The notes under the pieces are model-generated. The model was not told where the DNA came from. It was given only the letters and a program-made list of their open reading frames with translations, and searched no databases. Source: Salinisphaera sp. Q1T1-3 (GTDB lineage: Bacteria; Pseudomonadota; Gammaproteobacteria; Nevskiales; Salinisphaeraceae). From it: a DNA stretch of 46,862 nucleotides. Below, piece by piece: positions 1,038 to 7,785 of this stretch (within the stretch, counting starts at the first letter, position 1; each line of letters starts with the position of its first letter). A program made the position numbers and the translations under genes. Location of the stretch: positions 1 through 46,862 of the forward strand of contig NZ_QZWD01000024.1 in assembly GCF_003602005.1 (NCBI RefSeq), read 5' to 3'.

Positions 1038-1583
1038 TTACCGCGGCTGCAACAGCCCTTTGCGGTCAAGCGCGCTCACGGTGGCCCGTGCGACGGCTTC
1101 GGCTTTTGCCGGCAACGCTTCTGTCGATCGGCCCGCGGTATCGATGGCCATACGCGCGATGACACGCTGTGTTCTCGTATCGACAAGACTGACCCGATAC
1201 CCCGGACAACCGTTGGCCAACATCTGACGCGATGTGGTGTCGGGATCGGCCAGTTCGATGACGAGCGCAGCCTGAGCACCGCTGTGCGCCATGGCACGCT
1301 GTCGGCTGGCGGCGTCCTGCGGCCGTGTCGGCGAGGCCGCGGTGAGCATCGGCGTGCACGCATGGCCAGTGGATACAAGCTGCTGGCACATGGCTTTTTC
1401 GAAACGGCCTTCAACGGCCAGATCCTTGAACGCAGCATAGGCGAGAAATCCGTCGTACTTGGTCTGGTTCGTCGTGACGGACGGGTCGATGAAGGTCTGT
1501 GTATCGACGGGCCCGGCACAGCCGGCCAGTGCCAGCCCCATCAGGCCGGCAAGGTGCCACCCCAGACGCCGATACATACTCAT
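1038..1583 (-). CDS. Putative lipoprotein, last gene of cstA block
   Basis: This 181-residue protein begins MSMYRRLGWH and has a hydrophobic signal ending in the lipobox LAGC, so it is predicted to be lipidated at Cys22 and held in the periplasm-facing membrane. The mature part has no family I can name with confidence. Its C-terminal half (GYRVSLVDTRTQRVIARMAI) has the beta-strand rhythm of small periplasmic lipoproteins that carry a conserved 'D..t..ivwra' strand. The start was chosen at 1583 because it forms an ATGA overlap with the stop of the ATPase gene; the longer open frame upstream lies inside that gene. It carries three further Cys residues in the mature part. It may belong to the operon functionally or only by position. 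Confidence 0.75.
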   Translation of the reverse strand: MSMYRRLGWHLAGLMGLALAGCAGPVDTQTFIDPSVTTNQTKYDGFLAYAAFKDLAVEGRFEKAMCQQLVSTGHACTPMLTAASPTRPQDAASRQRAMAHSGAQAALVIELADPDTTSRQMLANGCPGYRVSLVDTRTQRVIARMAIDTAGRSTEALPAKAEAVARATVSALDRKGLLQPR

Positions 1584-2557
1584 GTGCCGCGCGTTATCGC
1601 GACACGTGCCTGGCTGACGCGTTCGGCCAGAGCCTCGAGCTGTTCTCGGCCCACGATATCGCGCGCGCTCTGCGCGACCTCGATCAACGGATAGTCCACG
1701 AACCGCTGGCGTATTTCGCATAGATATTCATATTGTTGGGCAACACGCTCGGCCACGAAGACACTGTCGGTATCGTTGGGCCAGAGCCGATTGACGATGA
1801 TATCGCCGATCGGGATCTCGGCCTGCCGCAGTTGTTCGATCACACGTGCGGTTTCTTCGATGGGCAGACGCTCGGCGAGCATGACCGGATGGAATCGTGT
1901 CTCGGTGGCGAGCCGCCGACGCGCGTCGCTGAACCGCTCGGCGCGCTGGCGAAGGCGGGTCAGCACACGGTCCTCGCGATCCGGCTCGGAGACCCCGGCC
2001 ATCGACCGCCACATGCCCTGCAGTTTGTTCACGCGGGCACGTTGCCCGGCCAGTCCTTCAACCCATGCCCCCAACATCGATGGCAGGGTAAGAAGTCGCA
2101 GCGTGTGGCCGCTCGGCGCGGTATCGAAAACAATACGGTCGTAATCATCCGGGCACCACCGCATGATTTCCGTGAAACGATCGAACAGGGCCGATTCGGC
2201 CGTACCGGGCGCCTGCACCGCGAGTTCGAGATGACGCTCCAACGCCGGCAGCACGGCTTTGGACACTGACTCGCGGGCGTCTTCACGAATCGAAGCGACG
2301 TAAGCACGCGCATCCGCCATCGGATCCAGCTCCATCGCCCACAAGGATGTGCCGGCCCGGGTCGGCTGATCACCCAGCGGTGTTTCGAGCAGGTCCGAGA
2401 CGGAATGCGCCGGGTCCGTGGAGACAAGCAGCGTACGCTGACCGGCCGCCGCCAGCGCGAGTGCATGCGCACTGGCCAGCGTGGTCTTGCCGACGCCGCC
2501 CTTGCCGCCGAACAGATCGAAACAGACCGGGGGTGGCGCAGCCGTCGTCGCTGACAT
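1580..2557 (-). CDS. ArsA/Get3 (TRC40)-like ATPase
   Basis: This soluble P-loop ATPase of the ArsA/Get3 branch of the SIMIBI class has 325 residues and a single nucleotide-binding domain, so it should act as a homodimer like Get3. Visible motifs are the deviant Walker A GGKGGVGKTT (17-26, signature Lys19), a switch-I-like STDPAHSVSD (46-55) and the family block FDTAPSGHTLRLL (144-156). It has only Cys12, Cys135 and Cys280 and no CxxC, so neither the Get3 zinc site nor the ArsA metalloid site is evident; arsenite pumping is unlikely and no arsB is near. The ATG at 2557 overlaps the preceding stop (TGATG) with AGGAG 10 nt upstream. A GTG at 2566 is possible but too close to that AGGAG. A role as targeting factor or chaperone for a membrane partner such as CstA is inference. 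Confidence 0.88.
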   Translation of the reverse strand: MSATTAAPPPVCFDLFGGKGGVGKTTLASAHALALAAAGQRTLLVSTDPAHSVSDLLETPLGDQPTRAGTSLWAMELDPMADARAYVASIREDARESVSKAVLPALERHLELAVQAPGTAESALFDRFTEIMRWCPDDYDRIVFDTAPSGHTLRLLTLPSMLGAWVEGLAGQRARVNKLQGMWRSMAGVSEPDREDRVLTRLRQRAERFSDARRRLATETRFHPVMLAERLPIEETARVIEQLRQAEIPIGDIIVNRLWPNDTDSVFVAERVAQQYEYLCEIRQRFVDYPLIEVAQSARDIVGREQLEALAERVSQARVAITRGT

Positions 2558-2829
2558 CAGCAGCACACTCCTGCCTCGGGAAACGTCTCCATACCCATGC
2601 GCTGGTGCCAGCGATGAAAGGATTCGATCAGATCGGGATAGAGTTCGAGCGCGTAATAGTCGGCCGGTCCGGGAATGCCGAGCGCTTCCAGAAACAATAG
2701 CGCAACCAGAACATCCTCGGCATCACGTGCCTGACGGGCAATGCCCGCTCGCCAGGGTGCGACGAATAACTCGTCGTGGAAGGCATTGATGCGCCGCCAC
2801 AGCGTGCGGTCATCACCGGTATCGGTCAT
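2557..2829 (-). CDS. Small protein ending in Cys-Cys (cory-CC-star type)
   Basis: This 90-residue, mostly helical soluble protein has its last two codons TGC TGC before the stop, so the chain ends exactly in Cys89-Cys90. The body carries a pattern I associate from memory with the family named cory-CC-star: aromatic/acidic N-terminal helix, ARDAEDVLVALLFLEALGIP (31-50), DYYALELYPDLIESFHRWH (57-75) and RMGME before the tail. No signal peptide or membrane span is seen. Both junctions overlap neighbours (ATGA with the gene upstream, TGATG with the ATPase downstream), which implies translational coupling. A C-terminal vicinal dithiol suggests redox exchange, metal binding or docking to the ATPase; none of these is shown by sequence alone. 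The family name is recalled and should be confirmed. Confidence 0.75.
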   Translation of the reverse strand: MTDTGDDRTLWRRINAFHDELFVAPWRAGIARQARDAEDVLVALLFLEALGIPGPADYYALELYPDLIESFHRWHQRMGMETFPEAGVCC

Positions 2830-3323
2830 CGGTCGTGTTCTCCCGGTATGGCATCACGGTCGCGCAGGTCCAGCCGGAGTCCGATCTCATCGACCACGGC
2901 CCGTGCCGAAGGCAGCTGGCCCACATGCAGGACTTCGCCATCGAGTATGGCCCCGGCCGCCGAACCGGCACGCACAAACTGACGCAGACGCCAGCCCAGG
3001 CCCTGTCCGGCCCCGGCCGAGCATCGCCACACGGCCGGATAGAGCCAGAGGGTATTCCGCGGGTCGACGATATCGATCGCCAGCGCCGGATGCGCGATCC
3101 GCAGACGACGGTAGATTTCACCGACGTGTTCCATCCATGCACGGCTGTGGCTGAAATCCGCGGCACGGCCGAGCATGGTATGGCGCTCGCCGAGCCGGCC
3201 GCAGCACCCCGAGCCGCTGTGCTGGGCATCCTGCTCGCGTACCAGGATCAGGCGATGCCCCCGACCGTCACGAGTCCGCGGCGACATGCCCGCCGGCAAG
3301 ATGCTGTCGATCGCGGCGGTCAT
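2826..3323 (-). CDS. Vicinal-Cys protein, thioredoxin-like pattern
   Basis: I cannot name a family with certainty for this 165-residue protein. The order of elements resembles a thioredoxin fold: strand HRLILVRE (23-30), a GSGCCGR motif with Cys40-Cys41 where CxxC would sit, a long helix around 60-76, strand LAIDIVDPRN (81-90), then GAILDGEVLHVGQLPSAR (124-141), which looks like the terminal beta hairpin and helix of thioredoxin-like proteins. No signal peptide is present. The start at 3323 was chosen because its ATG overlaps the cstA stop (TGATG); the much longer open frame upstream is a shadow of cstA. It ends in an ATGA overlap with the next gene. A cytoplasmic redox or metal-handling role beside CstA is inference. 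Confidence 0.72.
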   Translation of the reverse strand: MTAAIDSILPAGMSPRTRDGRGHRLILVREQDAQHSGSGCCGRLGERHTMLGRAADFSHSRAWMEHVGEIYRRLRIAHPALAIDIVDPRNTLWLYPAVWRCSAGAGQGLGWRLRQFVRAGSAAGAILDGEVLHVGQLPSARAVVDEIGLRLDLRDRDAIPGEHDR

Positions 3324-5020
3324 CACGTCGCCCCGGCACTGCCGCGACGCTGCCGGTTGAGTGCCGTGACCGCTTCGACGATCAGCCACGCTGTCAGTAT
3401 CGCAATGGCGCCGTCCATGACCAGCAACATCCAGCTGCCTTCGCGCAGGAATTCGAGCAGGTTGAGCACCAGCGCCCAACTGGTCATGAACAACAGAAAG
3501 ACCAGCGGCACGATCGCGGCGATCGGGCTGCGATTGCGCGCGAGCACCCAGACACTGACGACCGACAAGGCCAGGCCGGCGGTGAGCTGGTTGGTGGTAC
3601 CGAACAACGTCCAGAGCTGACCGAAAGCAAAGCCCTTGCCGCCGGCACCCTCGCCGCCCGGCACCAACGCCAGCGCCAAAGGCACGAGCACGGCTAGCGT
3701 GGTCAGCAGGGTCGTACGGCCGACCAGCGCCCGAAACCCGGCGAGCTCGGCGATTTCCTCGAGGATATAGCGCTGCAGCCGCACGCCGGTGTCCATGGTT
3801 GTGCCGGCAAAGGTGACCACCACGACAACCGCGAAAGAAGCGCCCAGTTGCGCCTGGATGCCCAGATTCGACAGGAAATGGCCCACACCGGTCACGAAAT
3901 TGCCGAGCGCGCCGCCGGAGGCCGCGCCGAAACTGGCATAGGCCGTCTGCCAGTCCGCGGCCGAGCCGAGCCCGGCCGTACAGGCCAGAATAGCGGCAAG
4001 CGCCAGTGACCCCTCGCCCATCGCGCCGCCGTAGCCGATATAGCGGGCATCGGTCTCCTTGTCGATCTGCTTCGACGTGGTGCCGGAGGCCACCAGACTG
4101 TGAAAGCCGGAAATGGCACCGCAGGCGATGGTGATGAACAGATACGGGAACCACTGCTTGGTATCCGCGGCCACCGGATTGACCGCGGGTGCCGTGATCT
4201 GGTCCCAGCCGACGATCACGCCAGCGAAGATCACCACCAGCGCGACGAGTAATTGTTGCCCATTGATGTAGTCGCGCGGCTGCAACAGCAGCCAGACCGG
4301 CAGCCGCGAGGCCACCCAGGTATAGGCGAAGATCAGAATCACCCAGGTCGTGCGTACCGACAAGCCGACCATCTCGGCCAGGCCATCGATCCGGATCGGA
4401 AACATCTGCCCGACCGGAATCGCGACGTATAGCAGCACCAGGCCGATGATCGAGGGGATCAGTACCGCGCCGCGCATGCGATAGACCCACTGGCCGATGC
4501 ACATCGCGATCGGAATCACGATCACGGCCGGGATCACCGATCCGGGATGAGCCTGGAACAGGATCGCCATCACCACGCCGAACACCGCGTTCACCAGCGT
4601 CAGCAGAAAGAAGATGATCAGCAGAAAGAGTGTGGAGGCCCGCGCCGAGATCACCTTGCCGGACAGGGTCCCGATGTTCTGGCCGCGATTGCGGGCCGAG
4701 GTGACGATAGCGCCGAAATCGTGCACGCCGGCACCGAAGACGGTGCCGAGAATCACCCAGGCGATCGCCGGCAACCATCCCCAATAGACCGCGATCGCCG
4801 GGCCGACGATGGGGGCGGCACCCGCCACCGCGGTGAAATGATGGCCGAGCAGGATGTGCTTGTTCGTCGGCACGAAATCCACGCCGTCAGCAAGCTCGTG
4901 CGCGGGCGTCCTGAAGTTGGGGTCCAGCGCATAGACCCGCTCGGCCAGATACTTCGAATAGAAGCGATAGCCGAGATAGAACGCTCCCAGCGTGATGACG
5001 ATGAGATAAAAGGCCGGCAT
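3323..5020 (-). CDS. cstA: CstA-family carbon starvation transporter
   Basis: This 565-residue polytopic membrane protein belongs to the CstA family, whose studied members import pyruvate or peptides during carbon limitation. Family signatures include LADGVDFVPTNKHILLGHHF near residue 45, the GAGVHDF and RNRGQNIG segments, FGVVMAIL, and a C-terminal block with GTTMDTGVRLQRYILEE. Hydrophobic segments run throughout, about 15 by eye. It is shorter than Escherichia coli CstA (about 700 residues) and similar to compact homologues. It is the first gene of the five-gene minus-strand block and has its own upstream region with a perfect dyad (5090-5114) and a hairpin in the probable leader (5035-5059). 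Unlike the Escherichia coli arrangement, it is followed by an ArsA/Get3-like ATPase and small Cys-pair proteins. Confidence 0.93.
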   Translation of the reverse strand: MPAFYLIVITLGAFYLGYRFYSKYLAERVYALDPNFRTPAHELADGVDFVPTNKHILLGHHFTAVAGAAPIVGPAIAVYWGWLPAIAWVILGTVFGAGVHDFGAIVTSARNRGQNIGTLSGKVISARASTLFLLIIFFLLTLVNAVFGVVMAILFQAHPGSVIPAVIVIPIAMCIGQWVYRMRGAVLIPSIIGLVLLYVAIPVGQMFPIRIDGLAEMVGLSVRTTWVILIFAYTWVASRLPVWLLLQPRDYINGQQLLVALVVIFAGVIVGWDQITAPAVNPVAADTKQWFPYLFITIACGAISGFHSLVASGTTSKQIDKETDARYIGYGGAMGEGSLALAAILACTAGLGSAADWQTAYASFGAASGGALGNFVTGVGHFLSNLGIQAQLGASFAVVVVVTFAGTTMDTGVRLQRYILEEIAELAGFRALVGRTTLLTTLAVLVPLALALVPGGEGAGGKGFAFGQLWTLFGTTNQLTAGLALSVVSVWVLARNRSPIAAIVPLVFLLFMTSWALVLNLLEFLREGSWMLLVMDGAIAILTAWLIVEAVTALNRQRRGSAGAT

Positions 5021-5293: not shown

Positions 5294-6406
5294 TCAGGCG
5301 TGTACGCCGCAGATCACGCACGCTGGATTGGCCGGTATCTGCATCGTATGCCAGCGCTGGCGCGCCAGATCGATCGACAACAGCCGGGCCGACAGCGTCT
5401 CCGACATGCCCACCAAGAGCTTGATCGCTTCGAGTGCCTGGAGCGTGCCCACGATGCCGGGCACCGCGCCAATGACGCCGGCCTCGGCACAGGTCGGCGC
5501 GGCCCCGGCCGGCGGCGCTTCGGCGAACAGGCAGCGATAACAGGGGGCGCCCCCGGCCGGAAACACCCCGACCTGTGCCGCGAATCGTTCGACCGCGCCG
5601 TAGACGAGTGCCACATCAGCGGCGACACAGGCATCGTTGACCGCATAACGGACATCGAAGTTGTCCGAGCCGTCGATGACCAGATCCTGGCCGGACACCA
5701 GTTCGGCTGCGTTGTCGACCGAGACCCGGGCTTCGACCGGCACGACTTCAATGGCCGGATTCAGTGCGACCAGCGTCGCATGGGCCGATCGGACCTTCGA
5801 TTGGCCGACCGTGGCATCCCGGTGCAGGATCTGGCGATGCAGATTGGAGCGATCCACCGTGTCGTGATCCACGACGGTGATCCGCCCCACGCCGGCCGCG
5901 GCGAGATAGAGTGCGGCCGGACTGCCCAGCCCGCCGGCCCCGATGATCAGCACACGCGCCTCGCGCAGGCGTGCCTGACCGGCCGCGCCGATCTCGGGCA
6001 GCGTGACCTGGCGCGCGTAGCGGGCCCGATCGGCGGCGTCCAGCGAGACCGGCGTCTCGAATGCCAGGCCGGCATCCTTCCAGCCATCGAATCCGCCGGC
6101 CACGGAGTGGACATCGGTATAACCGATCGCTCGCAGTTGTTCGGCCGCCAACAACGAACGCGCCCCGGAGGCACAGAGCAGGAGAATCGGCTCGTCAGCG
6201 GTCGCGCCTTCCGACTCCAACCGCATCTCGAGGAAGCCACGGCCGAGCGGTCGGGCACCGACCGGTGTGCCCTGGCTGATCTCGTCCGCCTCACGGATAT
6301 CGATCAGCCAGGCCCCGGCCTCGGCGCGCGTTGCGGCCTCGGTCGGAGAGACGGGCGGCAGAGTCTCGCGTAGCTGCGCGAGACGATCGGCGATGCGTTG
6401 CTTCAT
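5294..6406 (-). CDS. Rhodanese-ThiF/MoeB fusion adenylyltransferase
   Basis: This is a 370-residue E1-like enzyme that adenylates the C-terminal Gly-Gly of sulfur-carrier proteins (ThiS or MoaD) and passes sulfur to them. The N-terminal rhodanese domain (about 20-118) carries the active-site loop CASGARS with Cys78. The ThiF domain (about 128-370) shows the ATP loop GAGGLGSPAA (156-165), the DGSDNF acceptor region (245-250), the PTCAEAGV segment with Cys306, and zinc ligands CYRC (289-292) and CVIC (363-366). Rhodanese is N-terminal here, whereas in eukaryotic MOCS3/Uba4 it is C-terminal. The ThiS-ThiG fusion at 39907 is a plausible client; no moaD or moaE is in the window. Its start overlaps the rmuC stop by ATGA, so the two are co-translated. 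Confidence 0.93.
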   Translation of the reverse strand: MKQRIADRLAQLRETLPPVSPTEAATRAEAGAWLIDIREADEISQGTPVGARPLGRGFLEMRLESEGATADEPILLLCASGARSLLAAEQLRAIGYTDVHSVAGGFDGWKDAGLAFETPVSLDAADRARYARQVTLPEIGAAGQARLREARVLIIGAGGLGSPAALYLAAAGVGRITVVDHDTVDRSNLHRQILHRDATVGQSKVRSAHATLVALNPAIEVVPVEARVSVDNAAELVSGQDLVIDGSDNFDVRYAVNDACVAADVALVYGAVERFAAQVGVFPAGGAPCYRCLFAEAPPAGAAPTCAEAGVIGAVPGIVGTLQALEAIKLLVGMSETLSARLLSIDLARQRWHTMQIPANPACVICGVHA

Positions 6407-7785
6407 GGGGTTTCTTCGTTGCGGTCGGTCGCGCGCGGCGTGTCTTCGGCAGCCCGACCGATGCGTTGCTCACCGAGTTCGGCACGATCACGCCAGTCGT
6501 CGGGCAGACTCTTGGACGCGTTCGCGCCCATCTCGCGCAGCATCTCGGCCTGGCGCACCAGATTGCCGCGCCCGTCGGTGAGCTTGTTGCGTGCTTCGGC
6601 CATCGAATTGTTGACCGTTTCCAGGTTGCGCGACACCTTGTCGAGATCGGCCACGAAGCCCGCGAACTTGTCGTACAGCACGCCGGCCCGCGCCGCGATG
6701 GCCTCGGCGTTCTTTTCCTGCTTGTCCAGGCGCCACAAGTTCTCCACCGCGCGCAGCATCGGCATGAGCGTGGTCGGCGAGACCAGCGCGATATTGGCCT
6801 CCAGCGCCTCCCGCTGGAGGCCGAAGTCTCCGCGCAACGCCTCGACATAGGCGGCCTCGGACGGGATGAACATGAAGACATAATCCAGCGTGCGGATCGC
6901 CTCGATGCCCTGGTAGTTCTTGGCCGAAAGTTGTTTGAGATGACGCCGCACGGACGCGATGTGATCGGCGAGTGCGGCTTGTCGACTCGCCTCGTCCGAG
7001 GCCTCCTGGACCCGCAGATAAGCGGTCAGCGAGACCTTCGAATCGATCACCAGCGAACGCTCGCCCGGCAGATGCACCACCGCATCCGGCAGCTGGCGGC
7101 GGCCGTCCTCGGTAGTGGCCGCGAACTGAGTGACGTACTGCGTGTCCTTTTCAAGCCCCGAGCGTTCCAGCACGGTCTCCAGAATCATCTCACCCCAGTT
7201 GCCCTGGGCCTTGGACTCGCCGCGCAGCGCATTGGCCAGATTGGTCGCATCCTCGGCGATCGAGCGATTGGACGCCTCGAGCATCCGGATCTGCTGGGCG
7301 AGCGCCGAGCGCTGCCGATTCTCGGTGTCATAGGCCTCGCGCACCTGTTTTTCGAACCGCCCGATATGTTCACGCAACGGGTCGATCAACGGCGCCAGAC
7401 TGGCCTTGGTCGAGGCATCGAAGGCCTTGGTCTTCTCGTCGAGAACCTCCTGCGACAGGGCCCTGAACTGATCACTCAACTGCGCGCGTGCGTCGGTGAG
7501 CGTGGCCAGCTTGTCGGCGGCATGGCGCTGTTCGGCGTCAAGCCGCTCGCTCAGCCTGGCCTGTTCGCTGCGCGCCCGGGCCAGTTCGGCGTGTGCACGC
7601 TCCAGTGATTCCCGGTGTTCGTCGCGATCGGCCTCGATCCAGTCCATACGGGCATGCAGCGCTGCCCGTCGTGCGCGCGCGACCAGTCCGGCGATCAACG
7701 CCCCGACGGCGGCGCCGGCAAGCAGCCCGACAAGCCCCAGACCCAGTGATTGCGGCGCAAGCCATGCCTGCGAAGGAAAAGCCAT
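6403..7785 (-). CDS. rmuC: DNA recombination protein RmuC
   Basis: This 460-residue RmuC family member is a nuclease-fold protein that limits inverted-repeat and short-homology recombination. Residues about 12-36 form an N-terminal membrane anchor, residues about 40-150 are Ala/Glu/Arg-rich coiled coil, and the RmuC domain follows with the recognisable KAQGNWGEMILETVLERSGL, DSKVSLTAYL and FMFIPSEAAY blocks. Length and layout match the family. It is divergent from uup with 96 bp between start codons, and its stop overlaps the next gene's start. A link between the two co-translated genes is not obvious; the arrangement may be purely transcriptional. Confidence 0.95.
   Translation of the reverse strand: MAFPSQAWLAPQSLGLGLVGLLAGAAVGALIAGLVARARRAALHARMDWIEADRDEHRESLERAHAELARARSEQARLSERLDAEQRHAADKLATLTDARAQLSDQFRALSQEVLDEKTKAFDASTKASLAPLIDPLREHIGRFEKQVREAYDTENRQRSALAQQIRMLEASNRSIAEDATNLANALRGESKAQGNWGEMILETVLERSGLEKDTQYVTQFAATTEDGRRQLPDAVVHLPGERSLVIDSKVSLTAYLRVQEASDEASRQAALADHIASVRRHLKQLSAKNYQGIEAIRTLDYVFMFIPSEAAYVEALRGDFGLQREALEANIALVSPTTLMPMLRAVENLWRLDKQEKNAEAIAARAGVLYDKFAGFVADLDKVSRNLETVNNSMAEARNKLTDGRGNLVRQAEMLREMGANASKSLPDDWRDRAELGEQRIGRAAEDTPRATDRNEETP

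Follow-up and report, generated by a model that had tools for sequence, protein, structure and literature searches.

A cstA-linked gene module with cory-CC-star, an ArsA/Get3-type ATPase and the cysteine form of a probable selenoprotein family in Salinisphaera sp. Q1T1-3

The available part of one report (PMC5847655) describes CstA of Escherichia coli as a pyruvate/peptide importer and ybdD as required for CstA-dependent pyruvate uptake, which was 13% of the wild type in the cstA mutant and 20% in the ybdD mutant; the available part of a second paper (PMC4607533) states that DUF466, the YbdD family, ends in selenocysteine (Sec) in some Campylobacterales. Here we analysed a cstA locus of Salinisphaera sp. 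Q1T1-3, located on contig NZ_QZWD01000024.1 (the window, which means the whole stretch of 46,862 nucleotides), in which cstA is followed by genes for P0002, a protein with a Cys-Cys (CC) pair, for P0003, a member of the cory-CC-star family (cory hereafter), and for P0004, an ArsA/Get3-type ATPase. The locus resembles the E. coli CstA-YbdD pair (DUF466, PF04328; KCU-star, NF033934) in that CstA adjoins a small CC-ended protein, and YbdD also has a Sec form. It differs in that cory has no detectable relation to YbdD, the cory-linked CstA lies outside the YbdD-linked group, and genes for an ArsA-type ATPase and for P0002 come in addition.

The ArsD-ArsA-ArsB arsenite pump likewise brings together a membrane transporter, an ArsA-family ATPase and a small vicinal-Cys protein probably of thioredoxin fold, but here the transporter is CstA, the ATPase has one domain without conserved cysteines, and P0002 has neither a PF06953 match nor an hhalign link to ArsD. 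With the tail-anchored targeting ATPase Get3/TRC40, P0004 shares the fold family and the single nucleotide-binding domain, and it differs from it in lacking CxxC and in having CstA as its gene neighbourhood. The NCBIfam family NF041419 includes P0003, and its link to CstA, the ATPase and P0002 is shown here. The Sao selenoproteins in Table 1 of a partly available review (PMC13188914), compared by table entries alone, include SaoC with Cys-Cys-COOH and the thioredoxin-like SaoT alongside ATP-binding cassette transporter parts named Sao, but the transporter type and the families differ.

The five minus-strand genes at 1038-5020 were confirmed from reading frames and translations, and all four junctions overlap (TGATG at 3321-3325, ATGA at 2826-2829, TGATG at 2555-2559 and ATGA at 1580-1583), which bears out the array described in an earlier note on this DNA. 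The features are as follows.

3323..5020, minus strand: cstA, 565 residues, CstA-family (PF02554) importer of the type linked with cory-CC-star
2826..3323, minus strand: P0002, 165 residues with Cys40-Cys41, probably a CC protein of thioredoxin fold, in the Cys form of its family
3201..3206, minus strand: codons of P0002 Cys40-Cys41, Cys40 being the position of TGA in 13 homologues (alignments)
2557..2829, minus strand: cory-CC-star (P0003), 90 residues, NF041419, predicted to be helical with a free C-terminal tail
2560..2565, minus strand: codons of cory-CC-star Cys89-Cys90, the C-terminal end, followed by the stop
1580..2557, minus strand: ArsA/Get3-type ATPase (P0004), 325 residues, single nucleotide-binding domain without conserved Cys
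2480..2509, minus strand: P-loop GGKGGVGKTT of the ATPase (by reading), GGKGGVGK.T being kept across 102 aligned ATPases
1038..1583, minus strand: lipoprotein (P0005), 181 residues, LALAGC (by reading), outside the conserved module

CstA matched PF02554 with 451 bits (cut-off 27), and in the window's genome (3.87 Mb) this family matched one place only, a single gene hit in two pieces. P0003 matched NF041419 with 111 bits (cut-off 80), its sole NCBIfam match. A genome collection was scanned with seven cory proteins, which gave at least 512 relatives (at least 590 stretches); the best 80 loci were kept by their likeness to the query, so fractions among these 80 loci lean to close relatives. We also used a phylum sample of 398 genomes of the window's phylum and an order sample of 299 genomes of the order of Filobacillus, with locus profiles for CstA, the ATPase and cory. 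NF041419 was present in seven genomes of the phylum sample, the window's genome included, and the order cstA-cory-ATPase was found in all six others, with neither P0002 nor the lipoprotein found near the module in those six. Among the best 80 loci, the ATPase gene directly followed cory in 80 and cstA preceded cory in 77; of the three exceptions, L019 and L089 start at contig ends, and L077 (Salinicoccus albus) has no CstA within 8 kb. Two genes are split into two open reading frames (ORFs) each, CstA in L032 and the ATPase in L076, and only part of CstA is present in L072 and L092. The hosts of the 80 loci include Salinisphaera, the Idiomarina group, Psychrobacter and many Bacillaceae and Planococcaceae, together with metagenome-assembled genomes (MAGs) titled Nitriliruptoraceae, Gemmatimonadetes, Longimicrobiales, Spirochaetaceae and others, and cory was present in 112 of the 299 order-sample genomes. 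Comparison of these sequences shows the cstA-cory-ATPase order to be kept across phyla, and the module is almost certainly real.

In 11 of the 80 loci, cstA and cory flank a P0002 homologue, namely in the Salinisphaera-like L016-L018, L019 (Nitriliruptoraceae), L054 (Filobacillus milosensis) and six Halobacillus loci (L041, L045, L049, L081, L091 and L092). They also do so in 17 of 18 further fetched regions, the exception being that of G541. A profile search found P0002 homologues in 19 order-sample genomes, all of which fall within the 112 cory genomes (hypergeometric 2.8e-9). Loci L128-L145 and L016-L095 may share genomes (L054 is from G398, the Filobacillus genome, and L073 from G541). The association with cstA proposed in the earlier note is thus real and widespread, and chance co-occurrence is not supported for cory, the ATPase or P0002 (6/6 and 77/80 loci; 19/19 P0002 genomes within the cory set). 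Of the partners it had named, cory and the ATPase recur with cstA, as does P0002 in some relatives, whereas the lipoprotein does not: its one-sequence profile matched in 3 of the 80 loci only (L016-L018), where it sits 1.4-2.0 kb past the ATPase, and it was rejected as a fifth member on this count. The lipoprotein had no Pfam or NCBIfam match (E 0.1).

In Salinicoccus albus, the cory-ATPase pair (L077:6572-9226) has a glutamine-synthetase-like ORF upstream (by reading). A match to NF041419 below cut-off in Haloferax volcanii, a control genome, hints at a distant cory in haloarchaea.

The C-terminal Cys-Cys of cory was found in 97 of 97 loci examined, and Sec in cory itself was rejected for this reason. 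The cory consensus ends in FHDWHxRMGMExSPLDGxRCC (by reading), and the predicted structure is small and helical with a free C-terminal tail, in a model with a predicted template-modelling score of only 0.40. Sequence comparison with solved structures gave rows only at E 0.59 and worse, and the name cory-CC-star was not found in the open-licence PubMed Central (PMC) literature searched. Aligned YbdD homologues, which a pattern search found in 10 of 13 fetched regions, also ended in Cys-Cys in 10 of 10. In the phylum sample, CstA was present in 189 and YbdD in 67 of the 398 genomes, with YbdD in none of the seven cory genomes. Among 50 of the 80 named cory genomes, picked for variety, YbdD was found in one, a Bacillota MAG (G707), where another CstA adjoins the YbdD (L159:549-2824). 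The compared cory genomes therefore almost always lack YbdD/KCU-star. P0003 had no PF04328 match, and hhalign of cory against YbdD gave a probability of 5.5%, for which reason cory was rejected as a YbdD homologue. That cory is a small protein beside cstA with a Cys-Cys end bears only on the proposal that it works like YbdD.

In a rebuilt CstA tree, the YbdD-linked CstA (15 rows) formed one side of a branch with support of 100/100. The cory-less CstA of L096-L098 nested among cory-linked CstA in the first tree, and the rebuilt one again required two changes of the cory label. Both trees used 36 of the 96 cory-linked CstA and carried long-branch warnings, and the rebuilt tree left out the long row L101. 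Because of the YbdD distribution and the CstA tree, cory appears to replace YbdD on another CstA branch without detectable homology. By this analogy, cory is likely the counterpart of YbdD for its CstA, a parallel that the earlier note had not drawn. CstA genes without adjacent cory or ATPase, in genomes without YbdD and cory matches, were also seen in L096-L103, which include the large phylum-sample family f40.

P0002 had no Pfam or NCBIfam match at E 0.1, and its homologues were likewise without a family. The L054 homologue of Filobacillus milosensis has TGA in place of the codon for the first Cys of the pair. Among the 19 homologues of the order sample, an in-frame TGA at Gx[GD]-TGA-CGG was present in 13 (G398, G407, G421, G423, G438, G454, G468, G522, G541, G573, G611, G627 and G683), and TGC or TGT in six (G458, G496, G525, G578, G674 and G695), while the window's own P0002 carries Cys. 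The profile search itself flags 12 of the 19; the TGA of G421 was assigned by reading, the profile match having begun past it, the TAA flagged in G525 is the gene end (by reading), and L019 was excluded from the counts as its start is unreadable. The frame stays open for 104-206 codons past the TGA in the 13 genomes. SelB was over cut-off in 13/13 TGA genomes and 0/6 Cys genomes (Fisher 3.7e-5), and the Sec transfer RNA (tRNA-Sec) reached the Rfam gathering score in 12/13 and 0/6, respectively. In a check of ten genomes, SelB was over cut-off only in that of L054 and below it in the nine others, which were the window's genome, seven Cys genomes and that of L019, whose CC region is unreadable. 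Five TGA-form members matched nothing in NCBIfam and gave Pfam rows far below cut-off only.

A hairpin, typically CUGAUGA-CGGGU-UCAUCAG, begins 13 nt past the UGA codon. Of its pair cells, 90 of 91 were standard, with 7/7 pairs in 12 of the 13 loci and 6/7 in one; GGGUUCAUCA and the loop GGGU were constant, and the closing pair was C-G in eight and G-C in four. The number of paired cells, the covarying cells and the covariation score were above all 500 shuffles, the best slid version had 73.6% of cells paired, and at each locus 1-11% of synonymous-codon shuffles paired as well as the real sequence. Five Cys loci with the same spacing served as control and had 5/7 pairs, like the shuffles; seven others (L128, L130, L132, L041, L045, L081 and L092) fell outside the search pattern and were left out. 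From these sequence features, the P0002 family is very probably a selenoprotein family, with Sec-Cys at the CC site in genomes of the Filobacillus order. Since TGA, SelB, tRNA-Sec and a hairpin resembling a Sec insertion sequence (SECIS) occur together in relatives, the P0002 of the window probably represents, in its Cys form, a thioredoxin-fold selenoprotein family that has gone unrecognised. According to the available part of PMC13188914, Sec replacing Cys usually signals redox chemistry, which is therefore indicated at the P0002 CC site. In the accessible part of that 2026 review, none of the 119 prokaryotic selenoprotein families and subfamilies tabulated is tied to CstA or ArsA. One of its entries, NF049953 (Hypothetical protein DG), has a motif, GUxG, that would be compatible with that of P0002; the homologues had no match in NCBIfam scans, which presumably include NF049953.

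In a 15-row alignment of the P0002 family (Sec counted as C), the motifs GxGCCG and DPRN are constant, as are one G and one Y of the long helix and a late G. The predicted model appears to follow the thioredoxin order of elements, the pattern sought being beta-alpha-beta-alpha-beta-beta-alpha with a Cys site ahead of helix 1, and its 50 VIA rows are thioredoxins, protein disulfide isomerase domains, calsequestrins and similar proteins, without ArsD among them. On the strength of this model, P0002 is a probable thioredoxin-fold CC protein. Foldseek ranked ArsD (3mwh_B) first, at an E of only 0.025, with ArsD-type rows also at ranks 4, 7, 20 and 25 and no row reaching 0.001. PF06953 (ArsD) matched neither P0002 nor nine homologues, and hhalign against five ArsD gave 12.9%, over the CCGG stretch only; P0002 as ArsD was rejected for lack of a Pfam match and this low value, and its relation to YbdD was rejected at an hhalign value of 1.7%. 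Sequence searches found no solved structure for P0002 or for CstA.

Three homologues stand apart in their layout. A solitary TGA-form P0002 occupies L138:4868-5260 in G541, which also contains the Sinobaca qinghaiensis locus L073; the 10 kb fetched there showed neither cstA nor cory nor the ATPase, and the cstA-cory-ATPase module lies elsewhere in the same genome. At L142:5264-5938, a TGA-form P0002 and cory share one frame without an intervening stop (206 open codons past the TGA), so the two may be made as a fusion in this single case, in which cory keeps an ATG at 5672. The homologue at L145:4704-5207, with TGA, has about 35 extra residues after the motif, including another CC.

The ArsA arsenite pump ATPase has conserved metalloid-binding cysteines. 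P0004 was over cut-off for PF02374 (225 bits) and TIGR00345 (242 bits), carries the P-loop GKGGVGKT and a DTAPTGHT-type switch, and by reading has one nucleotide-binding domain and no CxxC. With TIGR04291, the ArsA arsenite pump family, it reached 145.9 bits against a cut-off of 650, over profile positions 5-284 of 565, and no alignment column had Cys in at least 30% of 102 ATPases. The protein is thus without the two-domain layout and the conserved cysteines of the pump ArsA; metalloid binding by the ATPase was rejected for want of a conserved Cys, for which reason it is also unlikely to be a thiol partner itself. Its nearest solved chains are 5zme (ArsA1), 3zq6 and 3ug6, the last two being archaeal Get3. 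The redox- or metal-responsive device that the earlier note had put forward keeps support for its redox side, through the CC pair of P0002 with TGA at the first Cys in 13/19, and loses support for a metal- or metalloid-handling ATPase.

The best overall explanation, to which we give a probability of about 0.5, is a transport module of CstA, cory, the ATPase and P0002, here in its Cys form. The arrangement hints at a redox-controlled transport system. CstA would be the importer, and cory a small helical accessory doing for its CstA what YbdD does for that of E. coli, with its free CC tail acting on the cytoplasmic side of CstA and being needed for uptake. The ATPase would be the direct partner of cory and, at the expense of ATP, would load it onto CstA or reset it there, while P0002 may act as the reductant that holds the cory CC tail, or Cys300 of CstA, in a reduced working state, and import would then follow the thiol state of the cell. 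The constant cory tail and Cys300 are candidate thiol partners of P0002, the latter not a specific one. Taken as a whole, this mechanism is tentative.

Several results weigh against this explanation. P0002 is absent beside the module in 69 of the 80 loci and from 93 of the 112 cory genomes, and is therefore no essential part of the core. Cys300 was invariant in 119 of 119 CstA compared, whatever partner CstA has; it therefore does not single out the module and was rejected as a module-specific target. The close CstA relatives of L096-L098 have neither cory nor ATPase alongside. YbdD was found in 66 of the 189 CstA genomes, so that seven random ones would all be without it in about 5% of draws, and its absence from cory genomes could reflect lineage; as hhalign shows no relation, the cory/YbdD parallel is one of position, size and tail only. 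Regarding Sec, the 13 TGA genomes belong to one order and are not independent by relatedness, G438 has no tRNA-Sec over threshold, and the Rfam scan gave no SECIS match. The hairpin of L054 alone is modest (z -1.70, with 13/200 shuffles equally good), and the numbers of covarying pairs (1) and extra pair types (3) were equalled in 426 of 500 shuffles. The assignments of cory as activating tail protein, of the ATPase as loader and of P0002 as reductant are ones that we infer.

Among other explanations, the ATPase might dock on CstA as ArsA does on ArsB, so that a secondary symporter becomes a primary pump; cory would then be the adaptor, and P0002 would take an ArsD-like position. A transporter, a CC protein and an ATPase next to one another do resemble ars operons, and both the ArsA/Get3 family membership of P0004, with 5zme (ArsA1) among its nearest chains, and the ArsD rows found by Foldseek would suit it; yet the Foldseek E of the top row is weak, ArsD is absent from the VIA rows and poorly aligned by hhalign, and the ATPase is single-domain without conserved Cys, which makes such an importer unlikely. 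An elaboration, in which the ATPase would be loaded via the CC-tailed adaptor with its redox state set by the thioredoxin-fold selenoprotein, giving an ArsDAB-like architecture and a selenothiol-controlled primary pump for a carbon source, is similarly doubtful. Alternatively, a Get3-like chaperone could insert or assemble CstA or cory, with P0002 as the redox switch of the chaperone and no role in the transport cycle. Family membership (TIGR00345), the cory-ATPase adjacency in 80/80 loci and the small helical cory model are consistent with it, but the same broad CstA group includes members without an adjacent ATPase (L096-L098), and the cory consensus end has no evident hydrophobic tail anchor (by reading), so we think it an improbable account of the module.

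Vicinal thiols of ArsD-type proteins bind As(III)/Sb(III), and with an ArsA-family ATPase nearby the module could move or sense a thiol-binding metalloid or selenium, the CC pairs being ligands and not redox centres. The ATPase without conserved Cys argues against this, as do the absence of ArsD (PF06953) from the window's genome, the pyruvate/peptide import by CstA given in the available part of PMC5847655 and the redox chemistry that Sec for Cys usually marks in that of PMC13188914; we regard it as quite improbable. That the TGA codons are stops of pseudogenes is scarcely credible: many of the assemblies are drafts, but the same codon recurs in 13 genomes with a long open frame after it, together with an exact match to SelB, a near-exact one to tRNA-Sec and the conserved hairpin.

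No description of a redox-controlled CstA module was found in the open-licence PMC literature, in the available part of PMC13188914 (Table 1) or among Pfam and NCBIfam families. What is gained is a probable new selenoprotein family, P0002, which looks to be absent from existing lists, and a CstA module that crosses phyla, while a metal reading is weakened. The module places in context both cory-CC-star, otherwise found just as a family name, and a set of bacterial ArsA/Get3-like ATPases. It also suggests that CstA transporters may often depend on a small protein that carries a Cys-Cys or a Cys-Sec pair, something that YbdD and cory, without detectable relation, may both have come to provide; if true, this would be a second system in which to probe the role of YbdD for CstA.

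Next to the array, past its last gene, positions 938-1013 encode a tRNA-Gly. Upstream of cstA, a 370-residue ORF on the minus strand (5294-6406) looks like a fusion of a rhodanese domain with a ThiF/MoeB-type adenylyltransferase, and next to it stands an RmuC-like ORF (6403-7785), both by reading.

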